Notes under the pieces: model-generated
Told to the model about the DNA's origin: nothing
The model's database searches: none
What the model saw: the letters and a program-made list of their open reading frames with translations, nothing else
Assembly: GCF_036227565.1 (NCBI RefSeq)
Contig: NZ_CP109460.1
Coordinates: 3,658,001-3,722,000 of the forward strand
Direction: 5' to 3'
Length of the DNA stretch: 64,000 bases
DNA from: Streptomyces sp. NBC_01454
GTDB taxonomy: Bacteria > Actinomycetota > Actinomycetes > Streptomycetales > Streptomycetaceae
Shown: positions 40,783 through 61,325 of the stretch, one piece after another
Layout: every line of letters begins with the position of its first letter
Numbering within the stretch: the first letter of the stretch is position 1
Made by a program: the position numbers and the translations under genes

Positions 40783-41666
40783 GGGACCATCCCCGCGGGC
40801 GCGGGGAGCAGCCGGGTAACCTCGCCGGTGTTGTGCTCGACGCGGGACCATCCCCGCGCGTGCGGGGAGCAGGCCATTCACCAGCTGCACCGCCCGGCCA
40901 AGGAGGGTCCATCCCCGCGTGTGCGGGGGGCAGGCCGCCTCCTCGAGACCGGCAGCCCATCCATCGGGTCCATCCCCGCGCGTGCGGGAAGCAGCTGGCC
41001 AGGTTGTCGGCCTTGGTCAGCGCCGTGGGTCCATCCCCGCGCGTGCGGGGAGCAGTGCCCCTTGATTTTCGGGTCGAGGAGTGCGGGGGTCCATCCCCGC
41101 GCGTGCGGGGAGCAGACTCACAGGGATACCCAAGAGCACTCCGAAGCGGGGTCCATCCCCGCGCGTGCGGGGAGCAGGCCACCACCCCTTGTTGCGGCAC
41201 CTGGCCGGGGGGGGCCATCCCCGCGGGTGCGGGGAGCAGCGGTGGCAGGTCGGGCGGCCGAGCCACCACTCGGGTCCATCCCCGCGCGTGCGGGGAGCAG
41301 TGGGCGGCCCAGTGGGAGACGTGCTCGATGTGGGGTCCATCCCCGCGCGTGCGGGGAGCAGTGCTTGGCCAGGGCCTTGTCGCTCGTCTGCGCGGGTCCA
41401 TCCCCGCGCGTGCGGGGAGCAGCTTTCGCCGCTCTCCAGGGTGATCCATTTGTCGGGTCCATCCCCGCGCGTGCGGGGAGCAGTCATCAACAGCCATCGG
41501 TGCACGGCTTCCGGGGGGTCCATCCCCGCGCGTGCGAGGAGCAGGCGGCGGTGATGCGGACCGCGCCCAGGGCCTGGGGTCCATCCCCGCGCGTGCGGGG
41601 AGCAGATGACGTCGGTGTTCTTGCTGGACTTGTAGTGGGGTCCATCCCCGCGCGTGCGGGGAGCAG
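40783..41666 (-). CRISPR. CRISPR array L1, type I-E, 15 repeats
   Basis: Fifteen 29-base repeats (plus-strand form GGGTCCATCCCCGCGCGTG then CGGGGAGCAG) separated by 14 unique spacers of 31-33 bases. In crRNA orientation the repeat reads CTGCTCCCCGCACGCGCGGG then GATGGACCC, so the array is transcribed leftward. Repeats near 40783 and 40905 and at 41211 show single changes, fitting the leader-distal end being on the left. The leader lies at 41667-41797. Confidence 0.97.
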
Positions 41667-41797
41667 TCTTCGTGACCTGCATCGTTACACGCGAGCGACA
41701 CGTTTTTGAACCACTTTCACCAACTCCGGCATTCATGACATTCGCGTCGTTCCATTTCAGCTGGGCGCTCTTAACCGCGCACCGCCAGCCTGGAGCT
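41667..41797 (-). promoter_or_regulatory. CRISPR leader copy (left)
   Basis: The reverse complement of these 131 bases closely matches the four leaders on the right side (51740, 52083, 52670, 53684), ending GTGTAACGATGCAGGTCACG and AAGA directly before the first repeat. It contains a stretch GTGAAAGTGGTTCAAA shared by most copies. It should drive array L1 leftward. Confidence 0.9.
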
Positions 41798-42180
41798 CGG
41801 GCGATCCCCGCGGGCGTGGGGATCGGTTATCGGACCGCGTGTACCAGCCGAAGGGCACGGGAACATCCCCGCGGGCGCGAGGAGCAGTTAGCGCGTTCGA
41901 GCCAGTGGTTCAGCAGCTCGGGACCATCCCCGCGGGCGCGGGGAGCAGCATGGGAGACCGGCCCCAGGAAACCGGCCCGAGGGACCATCCCCGCGCGTGC
42001 GGGGAGCAGTTGCTTTGCGCATCGTACGAAATGACCTCGGCGGGACCATCCCCGCGGGCGCGGGGAGCAGACGCGGCGCTCCCGCTTGATGCGGATGTAC
42101 TCGGGATCATCCCCGCGGGTGCGAGGAACATGGACCGAATGAGAAGTATTCTGGTCCATCCCCATTGACATGGGGATCAG
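41798..42180 (-). CRISPR. CRISPR array L2, type I-E, about 7 repeats
   Basis: Repeats begin at 41798 (degenerate, same end variant as at the right-side junctions), 41859, 41920, 41981, 42042 and 42103, with a decayed copy at 42152. The central bases are GCGGGCG rather than GCGCGTG as in L1. Spacers are 32 bases. No recognisable leader lies between this array and cas3 (42181-42268). Confidence 0.92.
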
Positions 42181-42268: not shown

Positions 42269-45200
42269 CTAGATCTGTTCGAGTCCAGTCATGGGGCTGT
42301 ATCGGATGCCCAGTGGTCCGCTGAGGCACGTGCCGTCCGGAGCCAGGATGGCTACCGGGGACCGGCGTACTGGCGGGTGGTCAAGGATGGGCCAGGTCCG
42401 GGGTGGGGGGAGGGACTTCTTTCCGGTGAACCAGTGTGCCGGTATCGGCAATGTGTTGAGCATGAGGTCGGTCTGCTGCTTTCGGTAGAGCGTCTTCTCC
42501 CTCATGGTTCGTTGGGCGCCTCGGTATCGCAGGTCGGTGGCCTGCTGTCCCTTGGGGTCGTAGGTGAGGGTGTCGTCGGGCTGCTGGTAGAGCGCGATCG
42601 CGTTGATCGTCGGTTCGCCGAGTCGTGAAAGGGCCTTGATGCCCCGCAGCCCGGCCCCTTCGGTTTCTCCGTCCCCGATGTCTTCGCCGCTTGCCAGTTG
42701 ACTCATCCTGACCGGCGTGCCGTCCGCGTCGTAGGGGGCGATGATGCGGGCTTGGGCTTCCTGGTCCTCGTCGGTGAGGTTGGCTTGCCACGCGGCCCAG
42801 GCACGGTCCAGCAGCTGGCCTGCCGTCCCGGCGGAGATCTGCCGCTCGCCGTAGACGGCTTCGATCAGCTCCGCGCTATCCGCTGGGGTGTTGAGGATCG
42901 TGAGGCCGTTCGCGCCTTGCTTGTGCTTGATGACGCGCCAGCTGGCCAGGAGCGGATAGGGGCTGTAGACGAGTCCGTCCAGGTTCGCCGGGGCCGTCCT
43001 TCCCTTCTCCGGGGGCTCGACGACGGGCAGGCCGTCGATGCCCGGCTTCCACAGCACCTGCATCTTCGGCATGTGCAGTGGCGTGCCGTCGTGGAGCAGC
43101 TGCTCGTGCCAGCACCAGCTGGGGCGCTGTTCGTCATTTGGCTTGTGCCGGTGGACGCGTCCGCGGCGCTGGATCAGGAGGTCGGTGGGGGCGAGGTCGG
43201 TGATCAGGAGATCGAAGTCGATGTCCAGGGACTGCTCGATGACCTGGGTGGCGATGACGATCATTCGCTTGGGGCGGCTGGGATTCGGCTTCGCCTTGTT
43301 GTCGGGATTCGGGCCGAGCTTTCCCTCGATCGTTTGTTCCAGAGGCTGCCTGTCCCGGGGCATGAAGCGACTGTGCAGGAGCACCACCTCGTGCGGGTCC
43401 CAGCCGCGCGCGGCGGTCTTCTTCCGGACCAGTTCGAAGAGCTCCACGCAGGGATCAACCCGCGTACGCAGCACGGCCAGTACGCCTCCGTGCTCTACTC
43501 GGGAGATGATGTCCTCGGCCAGAGCCTCGGGGCCGGGATCCGGCTGCAGGTCAATTGCTGTCCACAATGACGGCACCGCCTCCGTGGGACCGGTGCGGGT
43601 CACGAAGCCTTGGGCGTCGATGACGGTGATCGGGCCGGCTGCCCCACTGTCGGTTGCCTTCACCCGGTGCCCCTTGCACCAGGCCTCGGTCAGCGAAGTG
43701 CGGATCACCGTTGGCAACGTGGCGGACAGCACCACCACCGACGTGCCGGCATCCGCCAGCCACGCGACGGCGGCATCCAGCAGGCGCTGTTGATATAGCT
43801 CATAGGCGTGGGCTTCGTCGATGATGACGGTCTTCGTGCACAGCCCAAACAACCGCACCGCCCAGTGCTTGGAGCGCTGCGACCCCAGCACGATCTGGTC
43901 AACGGTTCCCACCGCGAACGGGGACACCAGCCCGAGCCACCGGCGCAGGTACCACTCGTCCAGCACCGCGCTCCCTCGTTCTGGCTCGGACTCCCCGCTC
44001 ATGGCCAGCCCCATGAATGACGTCAGATCGAACAGGTCGGTCTCGGCCTCTGCTTTTGCCTTCTCGCCGGCGTCGAGCAGCGCGTGGACTCTGCTGTCCG
44101 CCTTGGCGGTCCCGTGAACTACCGCGAGGGGCGCTTTCACGCCCGGTGGCAGAGCGAAGCGCAGGAAGTCCTCCAACACGCCAGCGACTTGACCGGCTGA
44201 GGCTCGGGTGGGCATGGCTTGATACACCCCACCGGCGCCGGTCACCTGTGCCACGTGGTGCGCCGCGGCGAGCGCGAGCTTGGTCTTGCCCGATCCGGTG
44301 TCCGATTCGACGAGCATCATCACCGGGCCCGTCGTCGGGAGTGCGGCGAGTCCGGCGGCCTGGAACGGACGCGGCGTCGGGGTGTCGGGGAATAGCTCGG
44401 GCCAGCCGCCGGGCGCCGTCGGCCACGCCTTGAGACGCAGGTCGTCGATCGCCTGGTGGGCCTGATCCCGTGCGGTCTTCCACCAGCCGGAGCAAGCGGT
44501 GCCGAGCCGGCGGTAGGGGAACCGGGTCTCGTCGGAGGCGAGCCAGTCAGAGATCACGATCAGCCCGAGAGCCAGGGGTATCGCCGAGGGCCGCTGCGGC
44601 CGCAGCACTGCTGCGAACTCGTCGCGGCCGATCCCGATGGTCTCCAGCACCGCGTCGACCAGGTCCTGGTGCACCGGCTCCCAGCCGTCGCCGGCCGTCT
44701 CGGCGGCCGTGGCCGGGTAGGCGCTTTGCACCGTCGCCGGGTTCGGGATGTGCCCGTGGTGCCCGCCGAGGATGTCCGCGGCAGCGTGCAGGCCCTTCGC
44801 AGCGTTGTTGTAGCGGCCGGCCCCGCCGCATCGGCGCCGGCACTCGCAGCCCAGGATCCGCGGAAGAGCTTCGGCGGTGATGTGTTCGTGCCGCGCCCAC
44901 GGCGCTCCGGCCATCTGGGCGTCATCGGGGAGGGGCAGGCCCGCGGCGCGGGCCTGCCGTCGCCAGTCCTGGCTGGCCTGGTCGAGTTCGGGGTCTTCGC
45001 CCCGGTAGGAGTCGCCGACCATGCGGAGGAAACAGGGTGCGGCCTTGCCCAGGTCGTGCAGGGCGGCGAGGACCATCACCACCTTCTTCGCCAGAGCCTC
45101 CTCTCCGCCGCCGAAGGCTTCGGCGAGCCTGGTGCGGGTGAAGGGCGGCAGGTAGTGGTCCCACAGGGCCTCCGCGCAGGCCGCGGTATCCAGCATGTGG

Positions 45201-45313
45201 GCGAACAGCGGATTCCACAGGGGACCGCCCGTCGCGCGGCTGGCTCGGCGGAGGTCGGTCTTGCCGACGACCCACAGCCACGGCTTCGGAGCATTCTTTT
45301 GAGTTCGATCCAC
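42269..45313 (-). CDS. cas3: Cas3 helicase-nuclease, type I-E
   Basis: I chose the GTG at 45313 with AGGAG 6 bases upstream; the frame is open 97 codons further but that part is not protein-like. The 1014 residues comprise an N-terminal HD nuclease (HMLDTAACAEALWDHY, ALHDLGKAAP), Walker A SDTGSGKTK near 334, the DEAH box IDEAHAYELY near 498 and motif VI LLIQRRGRVHRH near 720. Recruited by Cascade to an R-loop, it unwinds and degrades target DNA. Divergent from the Cascade operon across about 87 bases. Confidence 0.96.
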   Translation of the reverse strand: MDRTQKNAPKPWLWVVGKTDLRRASRATGGPLWNPLFAHMLDTAACAEALWDHYLPPFTRTRLAEAFGGGEEALAKKVVMVLAALHDLGKAAPCFLRMVGDSYRGEDPELDQASQDWRRQARAAGLPLPDDAQMAGAPWARHEHITAEALPRILGCECRRRCGGAGRYNNAAKGLHAAADILGGHHGHIPNPATVQSAYPATAAETAGDGWEPVHQDLVDAVLETIGIGRDEFAAVLRPQRPSAIPLALGLIVISDWLASDETRFPYRRLGTACSGWWKTARDQAHQAIDDLRLKAWPTAPGGWPELFPDTPTPRPFQAAGLAALPTTGPVMMLVESDTGSGKTKLALAAAHHVAQVTGAGGVYQAMPTRASAGQVAGVLEDFLRFALPPGVKAPLAVVHGTAKADSRVHALLDAGEKAKAEAETDLFDLTSFMGLAMSGESEPERGSAVLDEWYLRRWLGLVSPFAVGTVDQIVLGSQRSKHWAVRLFGLCTKTVIIDEAHAYELYQQRLLDAAVAWLADAGTSVVVLSATLPTVIRTSLTEAWCKGHRVKATDSGAAGPITVIDAQGFVTRTGPTEAVPSLWTAIDLQPDPGPEALAEDIISRVEHGGVLAVLRTRVDPCVELFELVRKKTAARGWDPHEVVLLHSRFMPRDRQPLEQTIEGKLGPNPDNKAKPNPSRPKRMIVIATQVIEQSLDIDFDLLITDLAPTDLLIQRRGRVHRHKPNDEQRPSWCWHEQLLHDGTPLHMPKMQVLWKPGIDGLPVVEPPEKGRTAPANLDGLVYSPYPLLASWRVIKHKQGANGLTILNTPADSAELIEAVYGERQISAGTAGQLLDRAWAAWQANLTDEDQEAQARIIAPYDADGTPVRMSQLASGEDIGDGETEGAGLRGIKALSRLGEPTINAIALYQQPDDTLTYDPKGQQATDLRYRGAQRTMREKTLYRKQQTDLMLNTLPIPAHWFTGKKSLPPPRTWPILDHPPVRRSPVAILAPDGTCLSGPLGIRYSPMTGLEQI

Positions 45314-45400
45314 CCCAACTCCTTTGCTGCTGTACGGTTTTGGCGCCGACGCTACATGAGTCCAACGAATACTTCTCTTTAAAACGGAAGGAGGTGGAGG
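45314..45400. promoter_or_regulatory. Divergent promoter region cas3 / Cascade operon
   Basis: Only 87 bases separate the two start codons, so promoters must overlap or face each other. The right end holds GGAAGGAGGTGGAG, a strong ribosome-binding site for cse1. A relatively AT-rich stretch (45362-45385) could contain -10 elements, but none is convincing. Confidence 0.6.
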
Positions 45401-46969
45401 GTGCAGACAGCACGACGTCCCTGGGACCCGCGGACCACAGCATGCATCCCGGCACTGACAACCGACCGAGTCCAACCGCAACTGATGAATCTGGTCCAAG
45501 TTCTGACCGAAGCCGACCGGATCAAGGCGATTTGCGGCTCGACGCCCGGCGAGACCATCGCGATCATCGAATACCTGCTCGGCATCATCCACGCGTTTGA
45601 GCACTGCCCCGCCGACGAGGACGAGTGGTGCGACTGGGTAGAGGGCCAGACCTCACTGGCCCCGGCCGCCGCGCGGCTGGCCGAGGACCCTGCCGACAGG
45701 TGGGACCTGTTCCACCCCAAGCGGCCCCTGGGCCAGAACAGGCTCCTCGCCCCCTGGATGAACTCCCATGGCGTCGGCCCCGCTCAGCTCGTGATCGAGC
45801 ACGCCGCGGACTACAACCAGCTCTTCGACCACCGGCACCTGCACGCCGCACAGCCCCTGCCCGTAGACCAGGCCTTCCGAGCGATGCTCACCCAGCACGC
45901 CTACGGGCTCGGCGGAAAGGCAAAAGCCAAAGCAGACTGGCTCGGCCCCGCCCTGCCCAACCAGGCAGTCGGCCGACTCAACGCCCGTGTAAGGGTCCTG
46001 GCCTGCGGCGACACCCTCGCCGACACCCTGCGCCTAAACCTCACCCCCACCCCGAAAGACAAGCAGGGGAACCTGAACTACTCCTGGACCGACGGCCGCC
46101 CCCGGCGCGCCTTCACCGGCACCAAGGACAAGGCGATGCGAGCCGTCGACGGCCCTGCCGACCTGCACACCGTCCTCGGCCGCTCCATCCTCCTGCACCC
46201 CGTCGACCGCGAAGACGGAACGATCGCCGTCGACCGGGTCCTGGTCGCCGCCGGCGAGCTCCTCAAGGACCTCCCCGCCCAGCATCTGCAAGACGCCATC
46301 GTGGAGGAGAAAGCCACCAAGGACGGCACGACCTACCGCACCTTCCTCAAGGCCAGCGAGACGCGAGCCCTATGGCGCGAGGCCCACGCCCTCTACGCGG
46401 CCGTCGCACCGAAGGAGAAGGGCACCGACCTCTACAGCCGCCTCGCCCAACTCGGCAACTACCGCACCAGCCTGTGGGCCGTCGGCATCGTCGCCCGCCA
46501 GACCAAGGCCATGTGCTGGCTCAGCGACACCTTCCCCCTCATCCCCGCACGCCAGGCGGCACTCCACCACGCCTCCACCACCGGCTCCCAAGTCGCCGAA
46601 CACGCCGCCAAGGCCCTCTACGCCGCCGCGAGCACCGCCCGCGAGATCGCTTACCCCAACCCCAAACCAGCCGACAAGCCGGCCCAGCTCGCCCGCTTCA
46701 ACGGCTCCCCACTCCTCTACGCCGAAGCTGGCGACCTCTTCCACACCCTCATGGACGACGTCGCCAACGGCACCACGGCATCAGAGGCCCTCACCACCTA
46801 CGCACGAGCCATCACCACCACGAGCCGACGCGTACTGGCCGAACGGCTGCGCTCCATGCCCTCGTCCGCGACCGCCCGGCAGGCGAGAGCAGAAGCCACC
46901 AAGCGCCTGCAAACGGTCCTCACCAACAAGACAGCCCCCCTCGTGCTCAAGGAGGCCGCCCATGCCTGA
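45401..46969 (+). CDS. cse1: Cse1 (Cas8e/CasA), large subunit of Cascade
   Basis: 522 residues, close to E. coli CasA (502). The start motif RPWDPRTTACIPALTTDR and the segments DRWDLFHPKRPLGQNR and NQLFDHRHLHAAQPLPVDQAFRAML are typical of actinobacterial Cse1. It reads the PAM and recruits Cas3. It starts at a GTG directly after a strong ribosome-binding site and overlaps cse2 by 8 bases. Confidence 0.95.
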   Translation: MQTARRPWDPRTTACIPALTTDRVQPQLMNLVQVLTEADRIKAICGSTPGETIAIIEYLLGIIHAFEHCPADEDEWCDWVEGQTSLAPAAARLAEDPADRWDLFHPKRPLGQNRLLAPWMNSHGVGPAQLVIEHAADYNQLFDHRHLHAAQPLPVDQAFRAMLTQHAYGLGGKAKAKADWLGPALPNQAVGRLNARVRVLACGDTLADTLRLNLTPTPKDKQGNLNYSWTDGRPRRAFTGTKDKAMRAVDGPADLHTVLGRSILLHPVDREDGTIAVDRVLVAAGELLKDLPAQHLQDAIVEEKATKDGTTYRTFLKASETRALWREAHALYAAVAPKEKGTDLYSRLAQLGNYRTSLWAVGIVARQTKAMCWLSDTFPLIPARQAALHHASTTGSQVAEHAAKALYAAASTAREIAYPNPKPADKPAQLARFNGSPLLYAEAGDLFHTLMDDVANGTTASEALTTYARAITTTSRRVLAERLRSMPSSATARQARAEATKRLQTVLTNKTAPLVLKEAAHA

Positions 46970-47582
46970 CGAACCGCCCGCCCTGTTCGACCTCGACGAG
47001 CCCCTCGCCCCGCCGAGCGCGGAATCCGAAGACGAGCGGGCCCCCGCCAAGCAGCTCTCCGACTGGCTCACCAGCCTCGTCCGAGGCAACCAGAACGGCC
47101 CCCTGGCCGACCTCCGCCGCCCCAAGGCCCGCACCGTACCCGGCATGATCGCCGCCAGCTTCTCGGGCCCCGACGCCACGCGCGACCAGCGCGACGTCTA
47201 CCGCCAGGTCGCCTTCCTCTTCGCCGTTTACCACCGCGGCTCCACCCGCGACAAAGCCATGCCGGGCCTCGGCACCATGGGCGCCGCCTGCGCCCGCATC
47301 GGCACCGCCGCCGGCCGAGGACGCAAGAACGAAGGCGCCGTCCGCATCATGCACCGCCTCCTCGCCTCCTCCCGCCGCATCCCCTGGCGCCACCTCCAAC
47401 ACGCCGTCGAACGCCTCCGCTCCTGCGACGCCGCCGCCCCCAACTGGCAACGGCTCGCCGACGACCTCACCGCCTGGCTGACCGACCCCGACCCGATCGC
47501 AGACCAGTGGGGGGCCGACTTCTTCACCCCCACCTACACGTCCAACAAGGCCAAGACCACCGAGAACGGAGCCGCAAAGTGA
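46962..47582 (+). CDS. cse2: Cse2 (CasB), small subunit of Cascade
   Basis: A 206-residue, Arg/Ala-rich helical protein with the family segment LRRPKARTVPGMIAASFSG reduced to DLRRPKARTVPG and the later HRLLASSRRIPWRHLQHAVERLRS. Two copies line the belly of Cascade and stabilise the R-loop. The TGA overlaps the GTG of cas7 (GTGA). Confidence 0.93.
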   Translation: MPDEPPALFDLDEPLAPPSAESEDERAPAKQLSDWLTSLVRGNQNGPLADLRRPKARTVPGMIAASFSGPDATRDQRDVYRQVAFLFAVYHRGSTRDKAMPGLGTMGAACARIGTAAGRGRKNEGAVRIMHRLLASSRRIPWRHLQHAVERLRSCDAAAPNWQRLADDLTAWLTDPDPIADQWGADFFTPTYTSNKAKTTENGAAK

Positions 47583-48931
47583 CCACCACCATCCCCGCGA
47601 CCTTCGCTGGACACCAATACCTGTCCATGCACGCGCTCATCCCCCTCGTCGCCGTCCTCCCCGTCCGCGACGAAAACGGAATGCCCAAGGAGATCGTCTA
47701 CGGCGGCGAGGCCCGCAACCTCATCACCTCCCAGGCCGAACGCCGCGCCGACCGCACCCATGCCCGCGACCGCGCCAACACCGGCGAAGGACACCTCGCC
47801 GGCTACACCATGGGCGTCCGCACCCGCGAATGGGGCCGCCTCACCCGCAACCAGCTCGCCACCACCCACGGCTGGGACCGCACCGAAGCGATGAACTACG
47901 CGCGCGCCGTCCTGACCGCGACCGGCCTGAAGTTCGGCGACAAGGACACCACCAGGGACCTCACCCAAGTCCTTCTCTTCGCCCCCCAGGACGCGGACCA
48001 CCACATCGCAGTCCTCATCAACACCCACCGCGACACCCTCACCCCGTGGTACGCCGAGTTCACCCAGGCCGAAGAAGCAGCCAAGAAGCCGGCCAAGGGC
48101 CGGAAGAAGAAGACCGACCCCGATGAGACCCCCGAGGCCACCGACTCCAAGGAGACGGAAGGAACCAAGTTCCCGCCCCTCCCCGGCGACCTCCGCGCCC
48201 AGGTCCTCACCGCCCTCGCCCCCCGCGACGCCATCGACATCGCCCTCTACGGCCGCTTCCTCGCCGAGATCGCCGACTCCCCGAATGTCGACGGCGCCAT
48301 CCAGACCGCCCACACCTTCACCGTCCACGCCGCAGAGCAGACCGACGACTTCTACGCCGCAGCCGACGACGCCAAGCTCATCCGCAAGGAGAACGCCACC
48401 GCTCTCGACTACCTCGACGCCGCCGACAACGCAGGCGCCGGCATGACGGGCTACCAGGCACTGATCTCCGGCGTCTTCTACCGCCACACCGTCCTCGACC
48501 GCCGCAAGCTCCGCCTCAGCCTCGCAGCCGCCGGCATGGCCCCAGAATCCTGCGAAACCGCAGCTCAGGCAGCTGAGAAGGAACTGATCGACGCCTTCGT
48601 CAACGCGATGCCGCAGGCAAAGAGGAACTCCACGGCGAGCACAGGCGCCCTCCCGTCCATCACCCTCGTCTTCGACGGCAAGCGCCCCTTCAACTACAGC
48701 GGAGCCTTCTGCAAGGCCATCGACGAGAAAGTCGACGGGACCGCAACCATCGCCGCAGCCAAGCGCCTCCTCGCCCACCACCGGCTCATCACAAGCCGCC
48801 GCGACGACGCCAACCCCGGCCGCATCCTCTCCTACGACCTCGACATCGACGAGCTGATCGACGAGCTCACCCAGGCCGGAAAACTGACGGGAATCCCCGT
48901 CAACCGCATCGACGAGCTGCCCACCAACTAG
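47579..48931 (+). CDS. cas7: Cas7e (Cse4/CasC), backbone of Cascade
   Basis: GTG at 47579 overlapping the cse2 stop. The 450-residue protein starts with FAGHQYLSMHALIPLVAVLP and contains the backbone segments DAIDIALYGRFLAEIADSPNVDGAIQTAHTFTVH, which contacts crRNA. It is about 90 residues longer than the E. coli protein, with a charged Lys/Asp/Glu-rich insert (KKPAKGRKKKTDPDETPE) near residues 165-195, presumably a surface loop. Six copies coat the spacer. 164 non-coding bases precede cas5. Confidence 0.94.
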   Translation: MTTTIPATFAGHQYLSMHALIPLVAVLPVRDENGMPKEIVYGGEARNLITSQAERRADRTHARDRANTGEGHLAGYTMGVRTREWGRLTRNQLATTHGWDRTEAMNYARAVLTATGLKFGDKDTTRDLTQVLLFAPQDADHHIAVLINTHRDTLTPWYAEFTQAEEAAKKPAKGRKKKTDPDETPEATDSKETEGTKFPPLPGDLRAQVLTALAPRDAIDIALYGRFLAEIADSPNVDGAIQTAHTFTVHAAEQTDDFYAAADDAKLIRKENATALDYLDAADNAGAGMTGYQALISGVFYRHTVLDRRKLRLSLAAAGMAPESCETAAQAAEKELIDAFVNAMPQAKRNSTASTGALPSITLVFDGKRPFNYSGAFCKAIDEKVDGTATIAAAKRLLAHHRLITSRRDDANPGRILSYDLDIDELIDELTQAGKLTGIPVNRIDELPTN

Positions 48932-49095: not shown

Positions 49096-49986
49096 ATGGC
49101 CACCATCCACACACTCCTCTTGCGCCTGGCAGGCCCGCTCCAAGCCTGGGGTGACTCCTCCAGGTTCGACCGCCGCGACACCCACAGCCACCCCACCAAG
49201 TCCGGTGTCATCGGACTGTGCGCCGCTGCCCTCGGCCTCGACCGCACCGCCCCCCTCGGCAAACTGGCTGAACTCCGCTACGGCGTCCGTATTGACCGGC
49301 CTGGCACGATGATCAGCGACTACCACGTCACCGGGGCCGGCTCATATCCCCTTCGCCCCCGAGACCTCATCACCGACCCCACCCGCGCAGCGAAGCACGC
49401 ATCCAAACTCCCCGACCTTGACGAAACGACCAGCACCCACCCCTTCGGCCACGACGTCGCCGTGGCGCTCACCGGCTGGTACGGGGCCCCCAAAGGCATC
49501 GCCCCCACCCGCGGCGGGGCACTGGTCGCCGGGGCTGTCGACCGCTCAGCAGTGCTGTCCACCCGCTGGTACCTGTCCGACGCGGTATTCCTCGCCGCCC
49601 TCGAACACCCCGACCACGACCTCCTTCAGGACCTGGCCGCGGCCCTCGAAGCCCCCGAGCGACTTCTCTGGCTCGGCCGCAAATCCTGCCCCCCAACCGG
49701 CAGCATCGCTGCCGGCGTACACCCCGGAACGATCCTCGAGGCCCTCACCGCCGCCAGCCCCACACCCAACCCCGCCGCCTACGACCCCACCCAGCCCCAC
49801 CGCACCGCTCCCTTGCCGCCGACGAGGCTGACGGCCTGGATCGAAGCCGAACCACACACCCCAGGCGCCACCCGCCTCAACGACCAGCCCGTCGACTACG
49901 CGCTCCGCACCCACGCCCCCCGCTGGGAAACCCGCACCCCCATCACCACCACCAACACGATTAGCCTCGAGGACTTGCTGCCGTGA
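49096..49986 (+). CDS. cas5: Cas5e (CasD)
   Basis: A 296-residue RAMP protein starting with TLLLRLAGPLQAWGDSSRF, the Cas5 hallmark, and containing FDRRDTHSHPTKSGVIGLCAAALG and the thumb region. It binds the 5' handle of the crRNA. It has a Pro/His/Thr-rich linker near the C-terminus. Start is 164 bases after cas7; its TGA overlaps the cas6e GTG (GTGA). Confidence 0.94.
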   Translation: MATIHTLLLRLAGPLQAWGDSSRFDRRDTHSHPTKSGVIGLCAAALGLDRTAPLGKLAELRYGVRIDRPGTMISDYHVTGAGSYPLRPRDLITDPTRAAKHASKLPDLDETTSTHPFGHDVAVALTGWYGAPKGIAPTRGGALVAGAVDRSAVLSTRWYLSDAVFLAALEHPDHDLLQDLAAALEAPERLLWLGRKSCPPTGSIAAGVHPGTILEALTAASPTPNPAAYDPTQPHRTAPLPPTRLTAWIEAEPHTPGATRLNDQPVDYALRTHAPRWETRTPITTTNTISLEDLLP

Positions 49987-50705
49987 CCGACAACAACACC
50001 CCCCAGGACGCCCGATTCGTCGCCCACCACAGCATCCTCCAGTTCGACACCCAGCACCCCTTCGCCCTCAAATCGATGCTCGACGTCCACGAGATGCACC
50101 GCACCGTCATGTGCGGCTTCTACGGCTGGGTTCCCATCGAAGAGCAGGGCCCCCGCGCCGCGATGGGCGTCCTCTCCACCTGGACCGTCGACCTCAAGAA
50201 CGATCGCCTCGTTCTTGTCGTCCAACACCGCACACCCGCCGACTGGTCACAAATCCCCACCGATGCCCTCGTCGACAAGCCCAAAACCCTCCCCGTCGAC
50301 ATGACCATCCGCGCCGGCGACACCTACGGCTTCCGCACCGTCGTCAACCCCATCCACCACCGCCCCGGCAACAAAACCCCCGACGGACGCTCCCGCCGCT
50401 TGGCCCACAAGACCCCCACCCACGTCAGCAAGTGGTTCACCGACCGCCTACAAGCCCCTGGGCAACCCCCGACCGCCCCCAACGGCATCACCCGCATCGG
50501 CGCCACCACCGACTCCACCAAACTTGCCGTACGCATGCTCCCCACCATCGGCTCAGCACACCCCAAACGCCGCAACCTCAAAGTCGCCCGCGCCGAAATC
50601 GCCGGCCAACTCACCGTCACCGACCCGACCGCCCTGACCTCCACCCTCGCTGCTGGCATCGGCAAAGCCCGTGCCTACTCCACCGGCCTGCTGCTTCTGC
50701 GGTAA
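49983..50705 (+). CDS. cas6e: Cas6e (CasE), crRNA-processing endonuclease
   Basis: 240 residues, two ferredoxin-like halves, with the C-terminal Gly-rich signature AAGIGKARAYSTGLLLLR that binds the repeat hairpin. His residues near the N-terminus (VAHHSI, HEMHRTVM) are candidates for the catalytic His. It cuts the repeat 3' of the hairpin and stays bound. Array R1 begins 36 bases after its stop; cas1 and cas2, which usually come next in type I-E operons, are absent. Confidence 0.94.
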   Translation: MTDNNTPQDARFVAHHSILQFDTQHPFALKSMLDVHEMHRTVMCGFYGWVPIEEQGPRAAMGVLSTWTVDLKNDRLVLVVQHRTPADWSQIPTDALVDKPKTLPVDMTIRAGDTYGFRTVVNPIHHRPGNKTPDGRSRRLAHKTPTHVSKWFTDRLQAPGQPPTAPNGITRIGATTDSTKLAVRMLPTIGSAHPKRRNLKVARAEIAGQLTVTDPTALTSTLAAGIGKARAYSTGLLLLR

Positions 50706-50741
50706 CGTCCGTCGTCGCGTCCGCCGCAGACAGGTCAGCGG

Positions 50742-51739
50742 CTGCTCCCCGCACCCGCGGGGATGTTCCCGGGGAACAGCGCCACGCTGGCCGAGGTCCC
50801 GGCTGCTCCCCGCGCCCGCCGGGATGTTCCCGTCGCGCAACGCCTGTCCGTGGCCCTGGTGCACTGCTCCCGCGCCCGGGATGTTCCCGCGGTGTGGCGT
50901 ACGTATGTCGCAACCCCGTGCTGCTCCCCGCGCCCGCGGGGCCCCTCCGACCGCCGACGGCCGGAGGTCGACGCGTTCTGCTCCCCACCCGCGCGGGGAT
51001 GGTCCCTGGAAGGCGAAGATGCCTGTCGCCACGTTGGGCTGCTCCCCGCCCGCGCGGGGATGGTCCCGTCACGATGCCAGGTGGAATCCTCTCGAGCATC
51101 TGCTCGCCGCATGTGCGGGGATGGTCCCGGCAATCGCTACGATCCGACCGCCAAACTGCTCTGCTCCCCGTGCCCGCGGGGATGGTCCCACCGTCACGCT
51201 GCCCCGCTCGAAGAGTGCGGGCTGCTCCCCGCGCCTACGGGGATGGTCCCATCGTCCGGCGCAACGAGTGGAGCGAGGTGACCTGCTCCCCGCACGCGCG
51301 GGGATGGTCCCCGGCTCAGGTCCATCGCGAGCTCCAGGCCCCACTGCTCCCCGCTCCCGCGGGGATGTTCCCAACCACCTGCAGTGGTTCGTGTCGTGGA
51401 TCGCCCTGCTCCCCGCGCCCGCGGGGATGTTCCCCCGGCCGGGTAGGCAACCGACCACGGGCGCCCCTGCTCCCCGTGCCCGCGGGGATGAACCCACCGC
51501 GCGCACAGGAGCGCGTCGGCTGCTCACCTGCTCCCCGCACGCGCGGGGGTGGACCCTGCGGAGGCTGGCGTCAGCATGCGCAAGTAGCCTGCTCCCCGCG
51601 CCCGCGGGGATGTTCCCGGTCCGGCCAGGGACTGCTCCTGGTGGACGAGCTGTTCCCCGCCCGCGCGGGGATGGCCCCATCCGGTGTGGGATCAGCACGG
51701 TCCTCTCCGCCTGCTCCCCGCGCCCGCGGGGATCGCCCG
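50742..51739 (+). CRISPR. CRISPR array R1, about 17 repeats
   Basis: Repeats of the form CTGCTCCCCGCGCCCGCGGG then GATG(G/T)TCCC, spaced 61 bases, transcribed rightward. The first is 36 bases after cas6e with no leader between. Repeats 3-5 (50864, 50921, 50978) are decayed: one is only 25 bases and one has lost the 3' half. The last (51711) ends GATCGCCCG, the degenerate form found at every junction to a leader. Confidence 0.95.
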
Positions 51740-51870
51740 AGCTCCACGCCGGCGGTGCGCCGTTAAAGGCGCCCAGCTGAAATGGAACGACGCGAATGTC
51801 ATGAATGTTGGAGTTGGTGAAAGTGGTTCAAATCCGCGTTGTGCGCGTGTAACGATGCAGGTCACGAAGA
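51740..51870 (+). promoter_or_regulatory. CRISPR leader copy 1 (right)
   Basis: 131 bases between array R1 and R2, starting AGCTCCACGCC and ending GTCACGAAGA. It is the reference for the other four copies; most differences among them lie in the middle third, while the 40 bases next to the repeat are almost invariant. Confidence 0.9.
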
Positions 51871-52082
51871 CTGCTCCCCGCACCCGCGGGGATGTTCCCT
51901 CCACCTTCCCCGGCATCCCGATCGGTCGTTCCTGCTCCCCGCATCCGCGGGGATGGCCCCATCCGCACCTACGGCGGCGGCGTCCTCGACGACTGCTCCC
52001 CGCGCCCGCGGGGATGGTCCCGACAAGGTGGCCGCGGCCGCCGTCATCCGCGACTGCTGCCCGCGCCCGCGGGGATCGCCCG
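51871..52082 (+). CRISPR. CRISPR array R2, 4 repeats
   Basis: Repeats at 51871, 51932, 51993 and 52054; the last has CTGCTGCCC and the GATCGCCCG end. Three unique spacers of 32 bases. Confidence 0.93.
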
Positions 52083-52213
52083 AGCTCCACGCCGGCGGTG
52101 CGCCGTTAAGAGCGCCCAGCTGAGCTGGAACGACGTGAATGTCATGGATTCCGGAGTTGGTGAAAGTGGTTCAAATCCGCGTTGTGCGCGTGTAACGATG
52201 CAGGTCACGAAGA
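52083..52213 (+). promoter_or_regulatory. CRISPR leader copy 2 (right)
   Basis: 131 bases, same length and same final 45 bases as copy 1; small differences such as GTTAAGAGCGCC against GTTAAAGGCGCC. Confidence 0.9.
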
Positions 52214-52669
52214 CTGCTCCCCGCACGCGCGGGGATGGTCCCTGGTGGGCGGTGATGGCGGCTTGCTTGCTGGCCTGCTCCCCGCACGCGCGGGGATGGT
52301 CCTTCGATGCACGCCGACCCTCGCACGGTGCACCGCTGCTCCCCGCGCCCGCGGGGATGGTCCCGCGTCGGTGCGGTTGCCATGAGTCCGTGTTGTCTGC
52401 TCCCCGCGCCCGCGGGGTTGGTCCCGTCTGGCTTCAGGCTGCGAACGTTGTCCTCACCTGCTCCCCGCACCCGCGGGGATGTTCCCATCTGGGGATCGGT
52501 CGAGAAGAGCGACCCGACCTGCTCCCCGCGGCCGCGGGGATGTTCCCGCGGCTTGGTGGTCGGCCTCGCCTCGGCCGTCCTGCTCCCCGCGTCCGCGGGG
52601 ATGGTCCGAGGTCCAGCACCAGGCACGTCACGATCGCCGCTTGCTCCCCGCGCCCGCGGGGATCGCTCG
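52214..52669 (+). CRISPR. CRISPR array R3, 8 repeats
   Basis: Eight repeats at 61-base intervals from 52214 to 52641; the last begins TTGCTCC and ends GATCGCTCG. Centre of repeats varies (CACGCGCG, CGCCCGCG, CGGCCGCG) while pairing of the hairpin is kept. Confidence 0.95.
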
Positions 52670-52800
52670 AGCTCCACGCTGGCAGTGCGCTGTTGAGAGC
52701 GCCCAACTGGACTGGAACAACGTGAATGTCATGAATGCCGGAGTCGGTGGAAGTGGTTCAAATCCGTGTCGTGCGCGTGTAACGATGCAGGTCACGAAGT
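52670..52800 (+). promoter_or_regulatory. CRISPR leader copy 3 (right)
   Basis: 131 bases; the most diverged copy, with about a dozen differences to copy 1, including GAGTCGGTGGAAG for GAGTTGGTGAAAG and T as the last base before the repeat. Confidence 0.9.
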
Positions 52801-53683
52801 CTGCTCCCCGCATGCGCGGGGATGGTCCCGTCGGGGTAGAGATCGGACTCGTCCAGAGCCTCTGCTCCCCGCATGCGCGGGGATGGTCCCGTCGGGGTAG
52901 AGATCGGACTCGTCCAGAGCCTCTGCTCCCCGCATGCGCGGGGATGGTCCCGCCCGAGGCAAGCTGCCGCGCGCTGGCACAGGCTGCTCCCCGCATGCGC
53001 GGGGATGGTCCCTCTTCGTCTGGTGGCGGGGGCGGTTCGGGTGTCTGCTCCCCGCATGCGCGGGGATGGTCCCTCGGCGCAGTACGAGAGGTCGCCCTTG
53101 AAGTTCTGCTCCCCGCACCCGCGGGGATGGTCCCCAGTTCCAGCTCCCGGGCCCGCAGCTCCTCAACTGCTCCCCGCGCCCGCGGGGATGTTCCCGACTA
53201 CGAGACCTACCTCGATCTCGACCCTGACTGCTCCCCGCGTCCGCGGGGATGGTCCCGGTGAGCGATGTGAAGAACTCGGGCTTGATGGCTGCTCCCCGCG
53301 TCCGCGGGGATGGTCCCTGGACGGCTGCGGCGCTCTGCCGGGTGGCGGTCTGCTCCCCGCGCCCGCGGGGATGGTCCCAACGCCGACGGCATCGCGATGA
53401 GGAGCGGCGCCTGCTCCCCGCGTCCGCCGGGATGGTCCCCCCGAGCCGTCCGTTCGCTTCAAGGTCCTGCACTGCTCCCCGCACCCGCGGGGATGTTCCC
53501 GCCATCCTCACCGCCCAGGCGACCGGCGCCGACTGCTCCCCGCACGTGCGGGGATGGTCCCGCCGACCGCAGAGACAGAAACGCGCCCATCGTCTGCTCC
53601 CTGCACGCGCGGGGATGGTCCCAGCTTCGACGAGTTCACGCGGCTCGACGAGGTCTGCTCCCCGCGCCCGCGGGGATCGCCAG
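52801..53683 (+). CRISPR. CRISPR array R4, 15 repeats, duplicated spacer
   Basis: Fifteen repeats from 52801 to 53655. The first two spacers (52830-52861 and 52891-52922), leader-proximal, are identical. The first five repeats share the form CCCCGCATGCGCGGGG. The last repeat ends GATCGCCAG. Confidence 0.95.
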
Positions 53684-53814
53684 AGCTCCACGCCGGCAGT
53701 GCGCGGTTAAGAGCGCCCAGACGAACTGGAACGACGTGGATGCCCTGAATGTCGGAGTTGGTGAAAGTGGTTCAAAACCGTGTCGTGCGCGTGTAACGAT
53801 GCAGGTCACGAAGA
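53684..53814 (+). promoter_or_regulatory. CRISPR leader copy 4 (right)
   Basis: 131 bases with GTTCAAAACCGTGTCGTGCG, which is closer to the left-side leader (GTTCAAAAACGTGTCG) than to copies 1 and 2. Confidence 0.9.
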
Positions 53815-54881
53815 CTGCTCCCCGCGTCCGCGGGGATGGTCCCACCAGCACGAGCACCCCCGTTCTCGAAGTCGACTGCTCCCCGCGTCCGCGGGGATGG
53901 TCCCCGCTCCAGCTGCCTGACGATGCCGGCCTTGCCCTGCTCCCCGCGTCCGCGGGGATGGTCCCTGGGGTTGAGCCGCCGCGCATAGTCCTGGGCGCTG
54001 CTCCCCGCGCCCGCGGGGATGGTCCCTGCGCCGCGCTCATCCGAATGTCCTGCACTTCCTGCTCCCCGCGCCCGCGGGGATGGTCCCTCGTTCTGGCCGG
54101 TGTCGGGGTTGTAGACCGGCTGCTCCCCGCGCCCGCGGGGATGGTCCCGCCTTGGCGACCTCGGCGACCTCGGCGGTGATCTGCTCCCCGCGCCCGCGGG
54201 GATGTTCCCAGCCTTGCCCTGGGCGGGCTCGGGTCGGGCAACTGCTCCCCGCGCCTGCGGGATGGTCCCCCTGCACAGTGACCGGAGTTGCGTGCGGCCG
54301 GCTGCTCCCCGTGCCCGCGGGGATGGTCCCGTCCACCTCAACAGGAATAACCTGGTCGTGATCTGTTTCCCCGCGCCCGCGGTGGATGGTCCCACCGCGT
54401 CGATCCGACCGCCCAGGGCGCCGGCCTGCTCCCCGCACACGCGGGGATGGTCCCAGGACGCCCTGGGTGGAGTTGCCGAAGTCCCGCTGCTCCCCGCGTC
54501 CGCGGGGATGATCCCGGCGCCAATCCCCGCGCCGTGGAGTTCGACCCCTGCTCCCCGCGTCCGCGGGGATGGTCCCACCGACGGCGGGGACCGGGACTCT
54601 CTGGGGCTCTGCTCCCCGCACGCGCGGGGAGGGTCCCGTGGTGTCGGTGTCCCACTCGGTGACGATGTCCTGCTCCCCGCACGCGCGGGGATGGTCCCGC
54701 ACCGCGGGTCGGGTCGTCCGGCTAAGACCGCTGCTCCCCGCGTCCGCGGAGATGGTCCCGGTCTCGGCGGGGGTGGCAAGGCCTACCCCGGCTGCTCCCC
54801 GCGTCCGCGGGGATGGTCCCGAACCACGACAGTCGCCACCACCCCGGTGGTACTGCTCCCCGCACACGCGGGGGTGCTCCC
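53815..54881 (+). CRISPR. CRISPR array R5, about 18 repeats
   Basis: About 18 repeats from 53815 to 54853. Leader-proximal repeats are uniform (CCGCGTCCGCGG). Toward the distal end repeats decay: one lacks a base (54243), one begins TTTCCCC with an extra base (54363), and the last (54853) reads GGGGGTGCTCCC. The sequence after the last repeat resembles a chromosomal amidohydrolase gene. Confidence 0.95.
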
Positions 54882-57326: not shown

Positions 57327-60300
57327 GTGGAGACCTTGAGTTCCGACTCAGGGGCACGCACGGCCTTCGCGGAACGTCTCGCGCTGCTGTACAAGGAGGC
57401 CGGCAACCCTCCCCTCAAGAAGGTGGCCGAAGCGGTCGTCCGGCTTCAACGGGTCGACGAACGAGGGCGGCCGGTGCGGGTGTCCGTGCAGCGGATCAGC
57501 GACTGGCGGCGGGCCAGGAACGTGCCTGCCCAGTTCGCCGCCCTCGCCGCGGTGCTGCACGTCCTGATCCCCCAGGCACGGCGTGTGCGACCCGCGCCGG
57601 TGTCCGCGGGCCTCTACGACCTGGCGCAGTGGCAGCTGTTGTGGGAGCGCGCGGTCGGCGACCGTGCCGCGTCCTCCGCGGAGGACGAGGCGCGCATCCC
57701 GGCCGAGGCCCCCGCCGTGCCCGGTGTGTGCCCCTACCGGGGGCTGGCCGCCTACCGTCAGCACGACGCCCGGTGGTTCTTCGGACGGGAGCGGAGTACC
57801 GCTGCCCTCGTTGCCCAGCTCCGCGCGGCGCAGGAGTCGGGCGGTCTGGTCATGCTCGTGGGCGCCTCGGGGGCGGGGAAGTCCTCGCTGTTGAACGCCG
57901 GCCTGGTGCCCGCCGTGCGAAGCGGCGCCCTGGGCGACGGGAACGGCCGGGCCAGGGAGGTCGTGCGGCTGGTGCCGGGCGCCGATCCGCTCGCGGAGCT
58001 GACCCGCCGGATACCGGAGCTGGCACCCGTCGCCACCGCCGCGCGGGAACCAGCGGGGAAGGAGTCCCGTACCCCGCACCGCGCGCAGGCGGTGCGGGAG
58101 GCCGCCGCGGCATGGGGGCGACGCGCCACGTCCTCCGGGGCCCGTCCGGTCCTCCTCGTGGATCAGTTCGAGGAGACCTTCACACTCTGCTCCGACGAGG
58201 CGAGCAGGCGCACGTTCATCCAGCTCCTGCACGCCGCGTGCACGCCCGCCGGCCCGGGTGACCCGGCCCCCGTCCTCGTCATCCTCGGCATCCGCGCCGA
58301 CTTCTACGAGCAGTGTCTGGGCTATCCCGAACTGGCCGATGCGCTGCAGCACCGGCACATGGTGCTCGGGCCGCTGACCGCCGCGGAGTTGCGCGAAGCG
58401 GTGACCGGTCCGGCCAAGGCGGTGGGACTGGAACTCGAACCGGGGCTGGCGGAGCTGATCGTCCGGGAGGTGAGCGCCGACGGAATCAGCGGCGCGCACG
58501 ACGCGGGGGCGCTGCCGCTCCTCTCCCACGCCCTGCTCGCCACCTGGCAGCGGCGCAAGGCCGGACGGCTGACGCTGGCCGGCTACCGCGCGGCGGGCGG
58601 CATCCAGGGAGCGGTGGCGGCGACCGCCGAGCGGGCCTGGTCCGGCCTCGACCCGGCCGCACGCACGGCCGCGAGACTGCTCCTGCTCCGACTGGTCCGG
58701 CTGAGCGAAGACACCCAGGCCACCCGCAGGCGGGGGACGCGGCGCCAACTGGCGGAGGAGTCCACGGACCCCCGCAAGACGGCGGAATCGCTCGAAGCGC
58801 TGGTGCACGCCCGGCTGGTGACCCTCGACGCGGAGGCCGTGGAGATCACCCATGAAGCGCTGCTGCACGCCTGGCCCCGTCTGCGCGACTGGATCGACGA
58901 GGACCGGAACGGCAACCTGCTGCGCCAGCGGCTGGAGGAGGACGGCAGGGCCTGGGAGGGCTCGCACCGCGACACCTCGCTGCTCTACCGGGGTTCGCGG
59001 CTGGAACAGGCCCGCACCTGGGCACAGTCCGCCGGTGACACCTTTTTGACCCGGAGCACGGTGGAATTCCTGGCCGCTTCGGTCAGGCTGCGCAGGCGCA
59101 CGGTCCGGATCAGCCGCGGTGCGGTGGCGGCACTGGCCGTCCTGGCGGTGGTGGCCGCCGGGGCGGCGGTGGTCGCGTGGCGGCAGCGGGACGACGCGGT
59201 GTTCGCGCAGGTGCTCGCCGAAGCCGATCGCGCCCAGTACACGGATCCGTCGTTGTCCGCCCGGCTCGACCTGGTGGCACACCATTTGCGGCCGGACGAC
59301 ACGGGCACCGACAACCGGTTGATCTCGACGGTGAACGCGCCGCTGGCCACGCCGCTTCTCGGCCACACCGGCGCCGTCTACCTCACCTCGTTCAGCCCGA
59401 ACGGTCGGATCCTGGCCACCGCGAGCTACGACCGCACCGTCAGGCTGTGGGACGTGGCGGACCCGGCTCGCCCCGAACCCCTGGGCAAGCCCCTGACCGG
59501 CCACACGAGCTGGGTGAGCACCGCGGTCTTCAGCCCGGACGGACACACCCTCGCCAGCGCTTCGGACGACGGCACGATCCGGCTGTGGGACGTGCGGGAC
59601 CCCGGCCACCCGCGCCCGGTCGGCGCGCCCCTGGCCGGCCACGGCGGCTCGGTCTACCTGCTCGCCTTCAGCCCGGACGGACGCACGCTGGCCGCCGCCG
59701 ACGAAGACCACACGGTCCGCCTGTGGGACATGAGCGGCCCGCACCGGCCGAGGCCGCTCGCCGTCCTGACCGGCCCCACCGACGCCGTGCGCTCCGTGGC
59801 GTTCAGCCCCGACGGACGGACGCTGGCGGCCGGTGGCGACGACGACACGATCAGGCTGTGGGACATGGCCGATCGGCGTCATCCGACACCGGTCGACCGG
59901 GTGTTGACGGGCCACGGGGGCACCGTGCACTCCGTGGCCTTCAGCCCCGACGGCCGCACCCTCGCCAGCGGCAGCGCGGACGACACCATCCGGCTCTGGG
60001 ACGTGGCCGCGCCACGGCGCGCGAAACCGCTCGGTGCGCCCCTGACCGGCCACACCGGCCCCGTGTGGTCGGTGTCCTTCAGCCCCGACGGAACGATGCT
60101 CGCCGCCGGCAGCGCGGACAGCACCGCGAGCGTGTGGAACGTCCGCAATCCGGCGTACCCGTCGCAGGTCGGCGAGCCGCTCGCGGGCAGCAGCGGCGAG
60201 ATGTACGCCGTGAGCTTCAGCCCCGACGGACGCACCCTCGCCACCGGGAGTGGCGACAACAAGGCCCGCCTGTGGTCGATACCGGCGTCGGACATGATCG

Positions 60301-61325
60301 GCCGCATCGGGGCGTTCCGCCCGGACGGGCGGGTGCTCGCCACGGCCGCGCGCGACGGCCGGGTGCGGCTGTGGAATGTGCGGGCTCCCCACCGGCCCGT
60401 CCTGCTGGGCGCACCGTTCACACCCGGGAAGGGTGGCGTGCGGTCAATGGCCTTCTCCCCCGACGGCCACACGCTCGCGGTGCTGACGGGAGACCACGCG
60501 GTGCGGCTGTGGAATGTCACCGACCCGGCCCGGCCCGGCCCCTGCGGGCCGCCCGTCGCGCTGCGGACGCGCTATGCGGGCGCCGGCGCGCTGGCCTACA
60601 GCCCGGACGGGCGCACGCTGGCAACCGCCCACGACGACCGCACCCTTCAGCTGTGGGACGTCAGCGCCCCGTCCCGCATGCGTCCGCTCGGCGCGCCGCT
60701 CGCCGGCCACACGGGCTACGTCAACTCCCTCGTCTTCAGTCCGGACGGCCGCACGCTCGCCAGCGGCAGCGCGGATGCCACGGTCCGGCTCTGGAGGGTG
60801 GCCGACCCGCGGCATGCCGCCCCGCTCGGCGCACCCCTCAAGGGGCACCTGGGACCCGTCAACATGCTCGCCTACAGTCCGGACGGCCACACCCTGGCCA
60901 GCGGCAGCGACGACAACACCGTCCGGCTCTGGAACGTCACCGACCCCCGCAAAGCCACCGGGCTCTCCACCCTCAAGGGCCACACCGAAGCCATCGTGTC
61001 GCTGACGTTCAGCCCGGACGGCCGCACCCTGGCCAGCGGCGGCAACGACGACCGGGTCCAGCTCTGGAACGTCACCCGCCCCTCCAGGGCCGCTCCCCTC
61101 GGCCCATCGATGAGCCCCGACGCCAAGACCGGCAGTTTCCTGTCGTTCAGCCCCACGACCCACCTGCTCGGGGTGTCGAGCGGCGCCGATTCCGTGCGGC
61201 TGTGGGACCTGGACTCCGACGAGGCGATCCGCCGCATCTGCTCGACCACCCGGGGCGTGCTGACACCGGAGAAATGGCACGAATACCTGCCCCGTCTCTC
61301 GTACGCGCCCCTGTGCGGCGGGTAA
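57327..61325 (+). CDS. HTH - STAND NTPase - WD40 repeat protein
   Basis: A 1332-residue signalling protein (a TTG at 57336, better spaced from AAGGAG, may be the true start). Domains in order: N-terminal helical, HTH-like region (about 20-90), a FWFGRERST-type entry into a STAND NTPase with Walker A VGASGAGKSSLLNAG near 180 and Walker B LLVDQFEE near 275, a membrane-spanning segment (ISRGAVAALAVLAVVAAGAAVVAW, about 595-618), and 12-13 WD40 repeats each with FSPDGRTLA and RLWDV-like ends. The WD40 part would sense a ligand outside or at the membrane and trigger the NTPase. Function unknown; related STAND proteins include immune sensors. Confidence 0.9.
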   Translation: METLSSDSGARTAFAERLALLYKEAGNPPLKKVAEAVVRLQRVDERGRPVRVSVQRISDWRRARNVPAQFAALAAVLHVLIPQARRVRPAPVSAGLYDLAQWQLLWERAVGDRAASSAEDEARIPAEAPAVPGVCPYRGLAAYRQHDARWFFGRERSTAALVAQLRAAQESGGLVMLVGASGAGKSSLLNAGLVPAVRSGALGDGNGRAREVVRLVPGADPLAELTRRIPELAPVATAAREPAGKESRTPHRAQAVREAAAAWGRRATSSGARPVLLVDQFEETFTLCSDEASRRTFIQLLHAACTPAGPGDPAPVLVILGIRADFYEQCLGYPELADALQHRHMVLGPLTAAELREAVTGPAKAVGLELEPGLAELIVREVSADGISGAHDAGALPLLSHALLATWQRRKAGRLTLAGYRAAGGIQGAVAATAERAWSGLDPAARTAARLLLLRLVRLSEDTQATRRRGTRRQLAEESTDPRKTAESLEALVHARLVTLDAEAVEITHEALLHAWPRLRDWIDEDRNGNLLRQRLEEDGRAWEGSHRDTSLLYRGSRLEQARTWAQSAGDTFLTRSTVEFLAASVRLRRRTVRISRGAVAALAVLAVVAAGAAVVAWRQRDDAVFAQVLAEADRAQYTDPSLSARLDLVAHHLRPDDTGTDNRLISTVNAPLATPLLGHTGAVYLTSFSPNGRILATASYDRTVRLWDVADPARPEPLGKPLTGHTSWVSTAVFSPDGHTLASASDDGTIRLWDVRDPGHPRPVGAPLAGHGGSVYLLAFSPDGRTLAAADEDHTVRLWDMSGPHRPRPLAVLTGPTDAVRSVAFSPDGRTLAAGGDDDTIRLWDMADRRHPTPVDRVLTGHGGTVHSVAFSPDGRTLASGSADDTIRLWDVAAPRRAKPLGAPLTGHTGPVWSVSFSPDGTMLAAGSADSTASVWNVRNPAYPSQVGEPLAGSSGEMYAVSFSPDGRTLATGSGDNKARLWSIPASDMIGRIGAFRPDGRVLATAARDGRVRLWNVRAPHRPVLLGAPFTPGKGGVRSMAFSPDGHTLAVLTGDHAVRLWNVTDPARPGPCGPPVALRTRYAGAGALAYSPDGRTLATAHDDRTLQLWDVSAPSRMRPLGAPLAGHTGYVNSLVFSPDGRTLASGSADATVRLWRVADPRHAAPLGAPLKGHLGPVNMLAYSPDGHTLASGSDDNTVRLWNVTDPRKATGLSTLKGHTEAIVSLTFSPDGRTLASGGNDDRVQLWNVTRPSRAAPLGPSMSPDAKTGSFLSFSPTTHLLGVSSGADSVRLWDLDSDEAIRRICSTTRGVLTPEKWHEYLPRLSYAPLCGG

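Follow-up and report, generated by a model that had tools for sequence, protein, structure and literature searches.

The window analysed, a stretch of 64,000 nucleotides (nt) from Streptomyces sp. NBC_01454 (contig NZ_CP109460.1, positions 3,658,001 to 3,722,000), carries a type I-E system of clustered regularly interspaced short palindromic repeats (CRISPR), in which a 160-nt unit, composed of a degenerate repeat and the leader following it, occurs five times within two outward-running arrays. These arrays, left and right in opposite orientation and about 10 kb apart, flank the type I-E effector genes. The unit was probably multiplied in them by repeat-repeat recombination, with the copies then gathering spacers of their own.

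Repeats were placed by consensus, the array consensus repeat ending in GGTCCC. Between repeats there were five gaps of exactly 131 nt, regarded as leaders, each situated directly 3' of a degenerate repeat of 29 nt:

51711..51739, plus strand: degenerate repeat of unit U1, being the last repeat of segment A0; ends CGCCCG
51740..51870, plus strand: leader of unit U1, 131 nt
52054..52082, plus strand: degenerate repeat of unit U2; ends CGCCCG
52083..52213, plus strand: leader of unit U2, 131 nt
52641..52669, plus strand: degenerate repeat of unit U3; ends CGCTCG
52670..52800, plus strand: leader of unit U3, 131 nt
53655..53683, plus strand: degenerate repeat of unit U4; ends CGCCAG
53684..53814, plus strand: leader of unit U4, 131 nt
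41798..41826, minus strand: degenerate repeat of unit M, in the left array; ends CGCCCG
41667..41797, minus strand: leader of unit M, 131 nt

Thus, the five 131-base leaders of the original prediction were found at the positions and on the strands it had given, and the altered ending it had described for the preceding repeats (GGTCCC to a CGCCCG-like sequence) was seen as CGCCCG in three, CGCTCG in one, and CGCCAG in one. Pairwise identity among the five units ranged from 139 to 150 of 160 positions (87% to 94%), the neighbours U1 and U2 (starting at 51711 and 52054) being the closest pair. Walking upstream, unit homology stopped at the 5' edge of the degenerate repeat, beyond which there was just the periodic signal of ordinary repeats; identity and boundary both bear out the idea that degenerate repeat and leader multiplied as one module. 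Variable columns made up 23 of 77 in the 5' part of the leader and 8 of 54 in the 3' part (Fisher P 0.06), and only 1 of the 24 columns adjoining the repeat (last 24 nt versus first 107 nt, P 0.015), confirming that the leaders are most similar beside the first repeat. The 19 nt ending one base 5' of the first repeat had five exact occurrences in the window, compared with a mean of 0.02 matches in shuffled controls with 3 mismatches tolerated. A whole-genome search with the unit returned the same five copies and, elsewhere than these arrays, nothing below an expectation value (E) of 0.4.

Separated by these units, the two arrays are made up of the following segments:

50742..51710, plus strand: segment A0, 15 spacer intervals, partly decayed, beginning 36 nt 3' of cas6e, without recognisable leader
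51871..52053, plus strand: mini-array A1, 3 spacers
52214..52640, plus strand: mini-array A2, 7 spacers
52801..53654, plus strand: mini-array A3, 14 spacers; core ATGCG in the first five repeats
53815..54881, plus strand: mini-array A4, 17 spacers
40783..41666, minus strand: mini-array M1, 14 spacers
41827..42131, minus strand: segment M0, 5 spacers, on the cas3 side, without recognisable leader

One locus cut into consecutive mini-arrays had been predicted. The mini-arrays are real; since the left unit sits in a separate, oppositely oriented array, however, two arrays rather than one are cut, and no leader was recognised by leader matrices for the cas-side segments A0 (from 50742) and M0 (from 42131). 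A possible leader remnant 5' of A0, suggested by CAGGTCA near the first repeat, was rejected because the 24-nt end matrix scored -46 in register versus 40 for a real leader. The 36-nt stretch at 50706-50741, which separates cas6e from the first repeat, occupies the position of cas1-cas2 in other I-E loci of the genus. There are 75 spacer intervals in all, 66 of them exactly 32 nt, with a repeat of 29 nt as in type I-E; one interval of 89 nt contains a decayed repeat. No spacer was common to different mini-arrays of the window, nor were there similar pairs across them. Within A3, the spacers at 52830-52861 and 52891-52922 are identical and lie side by side, with identical repeats around them.

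In type I-E systems, the repeat nearest the leader is copied whenever a new spacer is inserted; therefore, leader-end blocks of one repeat variant record acquisitions at that leader. By five-base repeat core, the leader-end run of A3 comprised five ATGCG (P 0.0006). Repeats, with terminal degenerate ones excluded, were more alike within mini-arrays than with shuffled labels (mean 2.95 versus 3.38 mismatches, with none of 2000 shuffles reaching so low a value). From these repeat patterns, separate past use as an entry point appears well supported for one leader, that of A3, and likely for others. To this extent the predicted separate entry points are supported for the past, but present-day entry is doubtful since no Cas1 or Cas2e match was obtained in the genome (see below).

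Of 8 exact scans of viral contigs with spacer parts of 21 to 28 nt, 2 gave a match, both extending to 32/32, and the remaining 6 gave none. One is the leader-adjacent spacer of M1 (41637-41606), with the flank AAC, and the other is the A4 spacer at 54088-54119, with the flank TAT. The M1 protospacer lies inside an open reading frame (ORF) of a viral contig (L107, 2780-3523, minus strand) whose translation looks lysin-like by eye, without a model match. No spacer match to phages was obtained by blastn with both arrays (one gave a weak 70% match over 150 nt, the other none). In S. avermitilis, the effective protospacer adjacent motif is 5'-AAN-3' (PMC12231136).

Leaders of this type occur elsewhere in the genus. 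An alignment free of gaps, covering 90 nt and a further 12 nt of repeat, was obtained for 25 leaders picked by a scan requiring a fixed 54-nt spacing, namely five from the window, two from G064, two from an S. decoyicus plasmid, 12 from two S. anulatus plasmids, and four from an S. atratus plasmid. With blastn, which made no demand on spacing, leaders of S. anulatus and S. atratus were again matched at equal length, and a leader query including repeats matched 58 Streptomyces plasmid records. The S. atratus plasmid, which has the cas1-cas2 of another I-E family, carries leaders that match the leader end along 90 nt without any difference in length. The window leaders thus possess a conserved sequence abutting the first repeat that is common to other leaders of the genus. 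The exact 19-nt pattern, searched in a collection of genome contigs, was found at 9 loci, none followed by a CRISPR repeat.

A sequence model of the 25 leaders detected a related leader in 143 of 392 Streptomyces genomes, with at least two matches in 86, at least three in 42, and at least five in 24 (scoring was limited to 10 candidates per genome, and matches need not be in one array). The architecture had been called unusual; it does depart from textbook arrays, but is found repeatedly in the genus, with close trains of leaders in several regions. The regions examined closely were chosen mostly for leaders (mostly several) or Cas7 type and therefore do not give the frequency of trains. The draft G339 contained 16 leaders in two stretches, 305 to 2999 bp apart, and other trains were those of two S. 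anulatus plasmids (6 leaders each), an S. aurantiacus plasmid (6 leaders), and shorter ones. In G339 (L065, L066, L099), cas3 has four internal stops and cas7 has one; judged from its genes and leaders, this system is decaying yet much duplicated.

The S. decoyicus plasmid NZ_CP108348 has a single unit with a 132-nt leader, identical to the five window units at 131 to 135 of 160 positions. The five window units are closer to each other than to the S. decoyicus unit. Immediately 5' of the latter no repeat was recognised, and an annotated coding sequence terminates 14 nt away. A degenerate repeat lying a fixed distance 5' of the leader was found in S. anulatus, where the distance is 157 nt in several copies, and in S. 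decoyicus, where it is 132 nt in one copy. Repeat-like sequence about 85 to 119 nt 5' of several leaders was present in G386 and G054, and many other leaders had no repeat-like sequence close upstream.

Profile searches of the whole 9.46-Mb genome for Cas1 (PF01867, TIGR03638) and Cas2e (PF09707) gave no match, the same profiles matching 9, 8, and 2 of 14 control genomes, respectively. Cas1 was tested in 80 of the 143 leader-bearing genomes (best leader E up to 1.9e-9); a Cas1e match was present in 39 (35 above the cut-off) and absent from 41, NBC_01454 included. The idea that leader number rises with Cas1 loss was rejected, as the opposite was found.

The effector of the window belongs to a divergent I-E family, its Cas3 being 46% to 50% and its Cas7 54% to 59% identical to those of plasmid loci with similar Cas3 and of G318, G234, and G339, whereas Cas3 is only 27% to 31% identical to those of the other I-E family's loci, most of which have adjacent cas1-cas2. 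Window-type Cas7 (E up to 1e-60) was found in 26 of 392 Streptomyces genomes, 17 of which, NBC_01454 included, had no Cas1e match. Among eight plasmid loci chosen by Cas3 likeness, seven showed neither cas1 nor cas2 in the 27 to 31 kb examined and one, M54, had both, as did the S. anulatus NBC_01516 locus of the same family. In a tree of Cas7, Cas5, Cas6, and Cse2 (built without Cas8e and without G012), these two loci were placed together at a tip beside the Cas1-less S. globisporus, and their cas1e genes were 74% to 95% identical to those of the other I-E family. The two tip loci appear to have captured cas1-cas2. A partial cas1 with cas2 was seen near the G337 locus, and in G201 a distance of 22 kb separates cas1 from cas7 on one contig. 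For the window, spacers may have been acquired in trans or cas1-cas2 may have been lost long ago, and past acquisition in trans is probable.

The proposed course of events starts from a leader with repeat sequence on both sides, the degenerate repeat before it and the first repeat after it; therefore, exchange between them could duplicate the leader alone, by unequal crossing or slippage between the flanking repeats. Such an exchange between a degenerate and an ordinary repeat would leave a hybrid repeat, combining a 5' part of the array with the 3' part, CGCCCG, of the former degenerate repeat. This expectation fits the sequences, as the first 23 nt of each degenerate repeat show 0 to 1 mismatch to the array consensus in U1 to U4 versus 3 in unit M and 3 in the S. 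decoyicus unit. Each new leader-repeat junction would then take spacers independently, copying its own first repeat, and spacer growth would push the unit copies apart into mini-arrays. The integrase would probably be Cas1-Cas2 acting in trans, because most examined loci of this effector family are without these genes. Since no Cas1-Cas2 is detected now, the mini-arrays are probably stores, still readable by the effector, whose growth has ended.

Several observations weigh against this reading. Two adjacent leaders without an intervening spacer, the expected intermediate, were not seen, and the tree of the units was poorly resolved (support 37 to 64). The leader-end runs of M1 (seven ACGCG, P 0.12), A4 (three GTCCG, P 0.07), and A2 (two ACGCG, P 0.10) were not significant singly, the repeats of A1 showed no such run, and similarity between neighbouring repeats had a low P in A3 (0.002) and A2 (0.04) only. 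An AAN-type flank was present at just one of the two protospacers, AAC fitting and TAT not. At least two leader matches were found in 35 of the 39 Cas1-positive versus 20 of the 41 Cas1-less genomes, and cas1-cas2 may formerly have been present in cis and since been lost. The alignment of the 25 leaders is gap-free partly by construction because the scan demanded fixed spacing, and similar spacers across mini-arrays were absent from 10 of the 14 genome sets compared, the window included.

The remaining four sets bear on a less probable but possible origin, in which tandem duplication affected whole blocks, each of a leader and part of its array, and the common spacers were later erased by spacer turnover, leaving the 160-nt unit as the part still alike. 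Similar spacer pairs in different mini-arrays (six in G339, two in S. aurantiacus, two in WAC00288, and one in S. anulatus NBC 01576) point to segmental duplication there, which also speaks for the main reading of multiplication by recombination, and in S. anulatus NBC_01516 the homology of two units extends past the degenerate repeat; in the window, however, no similar pair was found across mini-arrays although the units are 87% to 94% alike. An improbable alternative makes the unit a mobile cassette or an over-long spacer integrated by Cas1-Cas2, as might be suggested by its opposite orientation in two arrays about 10 kb apart and by the single unit of the S. decoyicus plasmid. Against it, no transposase was found among the 20 neighbouring ORFs scanned, all five genome copies lie inside arrays, and insertion in the manner of a spacer should copy an ordinary repeat rather than carry a degenerate one along. 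The sequence is repetitive, but an assembly artefact is very improbable: the units differ at 10 to 21 of 160 positions and enclose different spacers, and are therefore not one sequence copied by the assembler, and further genomes, as well as plasmids whose records are marked complete, have trains of this kind. Decay is common in the terminal repeats of CRISPR arrays, but independent decay of the repeats before the leaders is hardly credible, as all five share nearly the same six-base ending followed by continuous 131-nt homology.

Beyond multiplication by repeat exchange in this locus, it is tentatively proposed, with the chances somewhat against the proposal as a whole, that Streptomyces leaders bordered by repeat-like sequence are duplicable parts from which repeat exchange makes trains of parallel entry points, and that a whole I-E family with no Cas1-Cas2 of its own keeps its leaders because spacers are supplied to its arrays in trans by a co-resident Cas1-Cas2 of the other I-E family. 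The usual view of a CRISPR array is that of one time line growing from one leader. Leader trains break this rule, spacer order being chronological within a mini-array only, and such loci would be misinterpreted by tools that assume one leader for each array. Questions raised are those of parallel acquisition at several entry points of one locus and of Cas1-less I-E loci borrowing Cas1-Cas2.

Type I-E arrays with multiplied leaders appear to be newly described here, as no description of duplicated repeat plus leader units was found among the matches listed from the open PubMed Central literature. The type I-E system of S. avermitilis resembles that of the window in having CRISPR loci both upstream and downstream of the cas genes, but it has cas1-cas2 and is described with one leader per locus and no internal leaders (PMC4762764). 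Plasmid pSHK1 of Streptomyces sp. HK1 likewise has several arrays with one I-E system, that is, seven arrays and eight cas genes, with two arrays flanking the cas genes and five spread over the plasmid, but no duplicated repeat plus leader unit figures in the review's account (PMC12231136). The I-E loci of Streptomycetaceae that have tnsB-tnsC and no cas1-cas2 (Faure 2019, via PMC12231136 and PMC8730458) share with the window effector genes and arrays lacking cas1-cas2, although their spacer length is more varied than the nearly constant one here. This variant was rejected for the window, as no TnsB-type (PF09299) match was found near the locus, the nearest on the contig being about 3.6 Mb off; the 20 neighbouring ORFs were scanned, with tnsC not searched by a model of its own. 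Consecutive leader and mini-array modules on one strand are also found in G339, G386, G163, the S. anulatus plasmids, and the S. aurantiacus plasmid, but these differ from the window in leader length and degenerate repeat, and some have spacers common between modules.

Derived Streptomyces I-E modules with a STAND nucleoside triphosphatase (NTPase) and without cas3 have also been reported (Shmakov 2018, via PMC12231136 and PMC8730458). The minimal form, with neither cas3 nor array, does not describe the window, which has both. Many effector relatives (L144-L164) lack a full cas3 and have few or no repeats in the stretch examined, and some of these may be derived STAND modules. An nSTAND1 NTPase with WD40 repeats is encoded at 57327-61325 (plus strand), 2.4 kb beyond the right array.

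The effector set is located at 42.3 to 50.7 kb, with cas3 on the minus strand divergent from cas8e-cse2-cas7-cas5-cas6:

42269..45604, minus strand: cas3 (longest ORF)
45401..46969, plus strand: cas8e/cse1
46962..47582, plus strand: cse2/cas11e
47507..48931, plus strand: cas7e
49096..49986, plus strand: cas5e
49983..50705, plus strand: cas6e, followed by repeats, not by cas1-cas2

The presence of cas8e, cse2, cas7e, cas5e, cas6e, and cas3 with a 29-nt repeat and 32-nt spacers assigns the system to type I-E, although apparently not as a complete system, as no match for the adaptation genes cas1e-cas2e was obtained in the genome. The ORF at 45625-47148 was rejected as cas8e, being in the wrong frame. 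The longest cas3 ORF overlaps cas8e at 45401-45604; because the alignments of most relatives start near residue 93 to 114, the true cas3 start is probably later than that of the longest ORF, downstream of 45604. Near the left array, a gene for a Ku-type DNA end-binding protein is located at 39268-40068 (minus strand).

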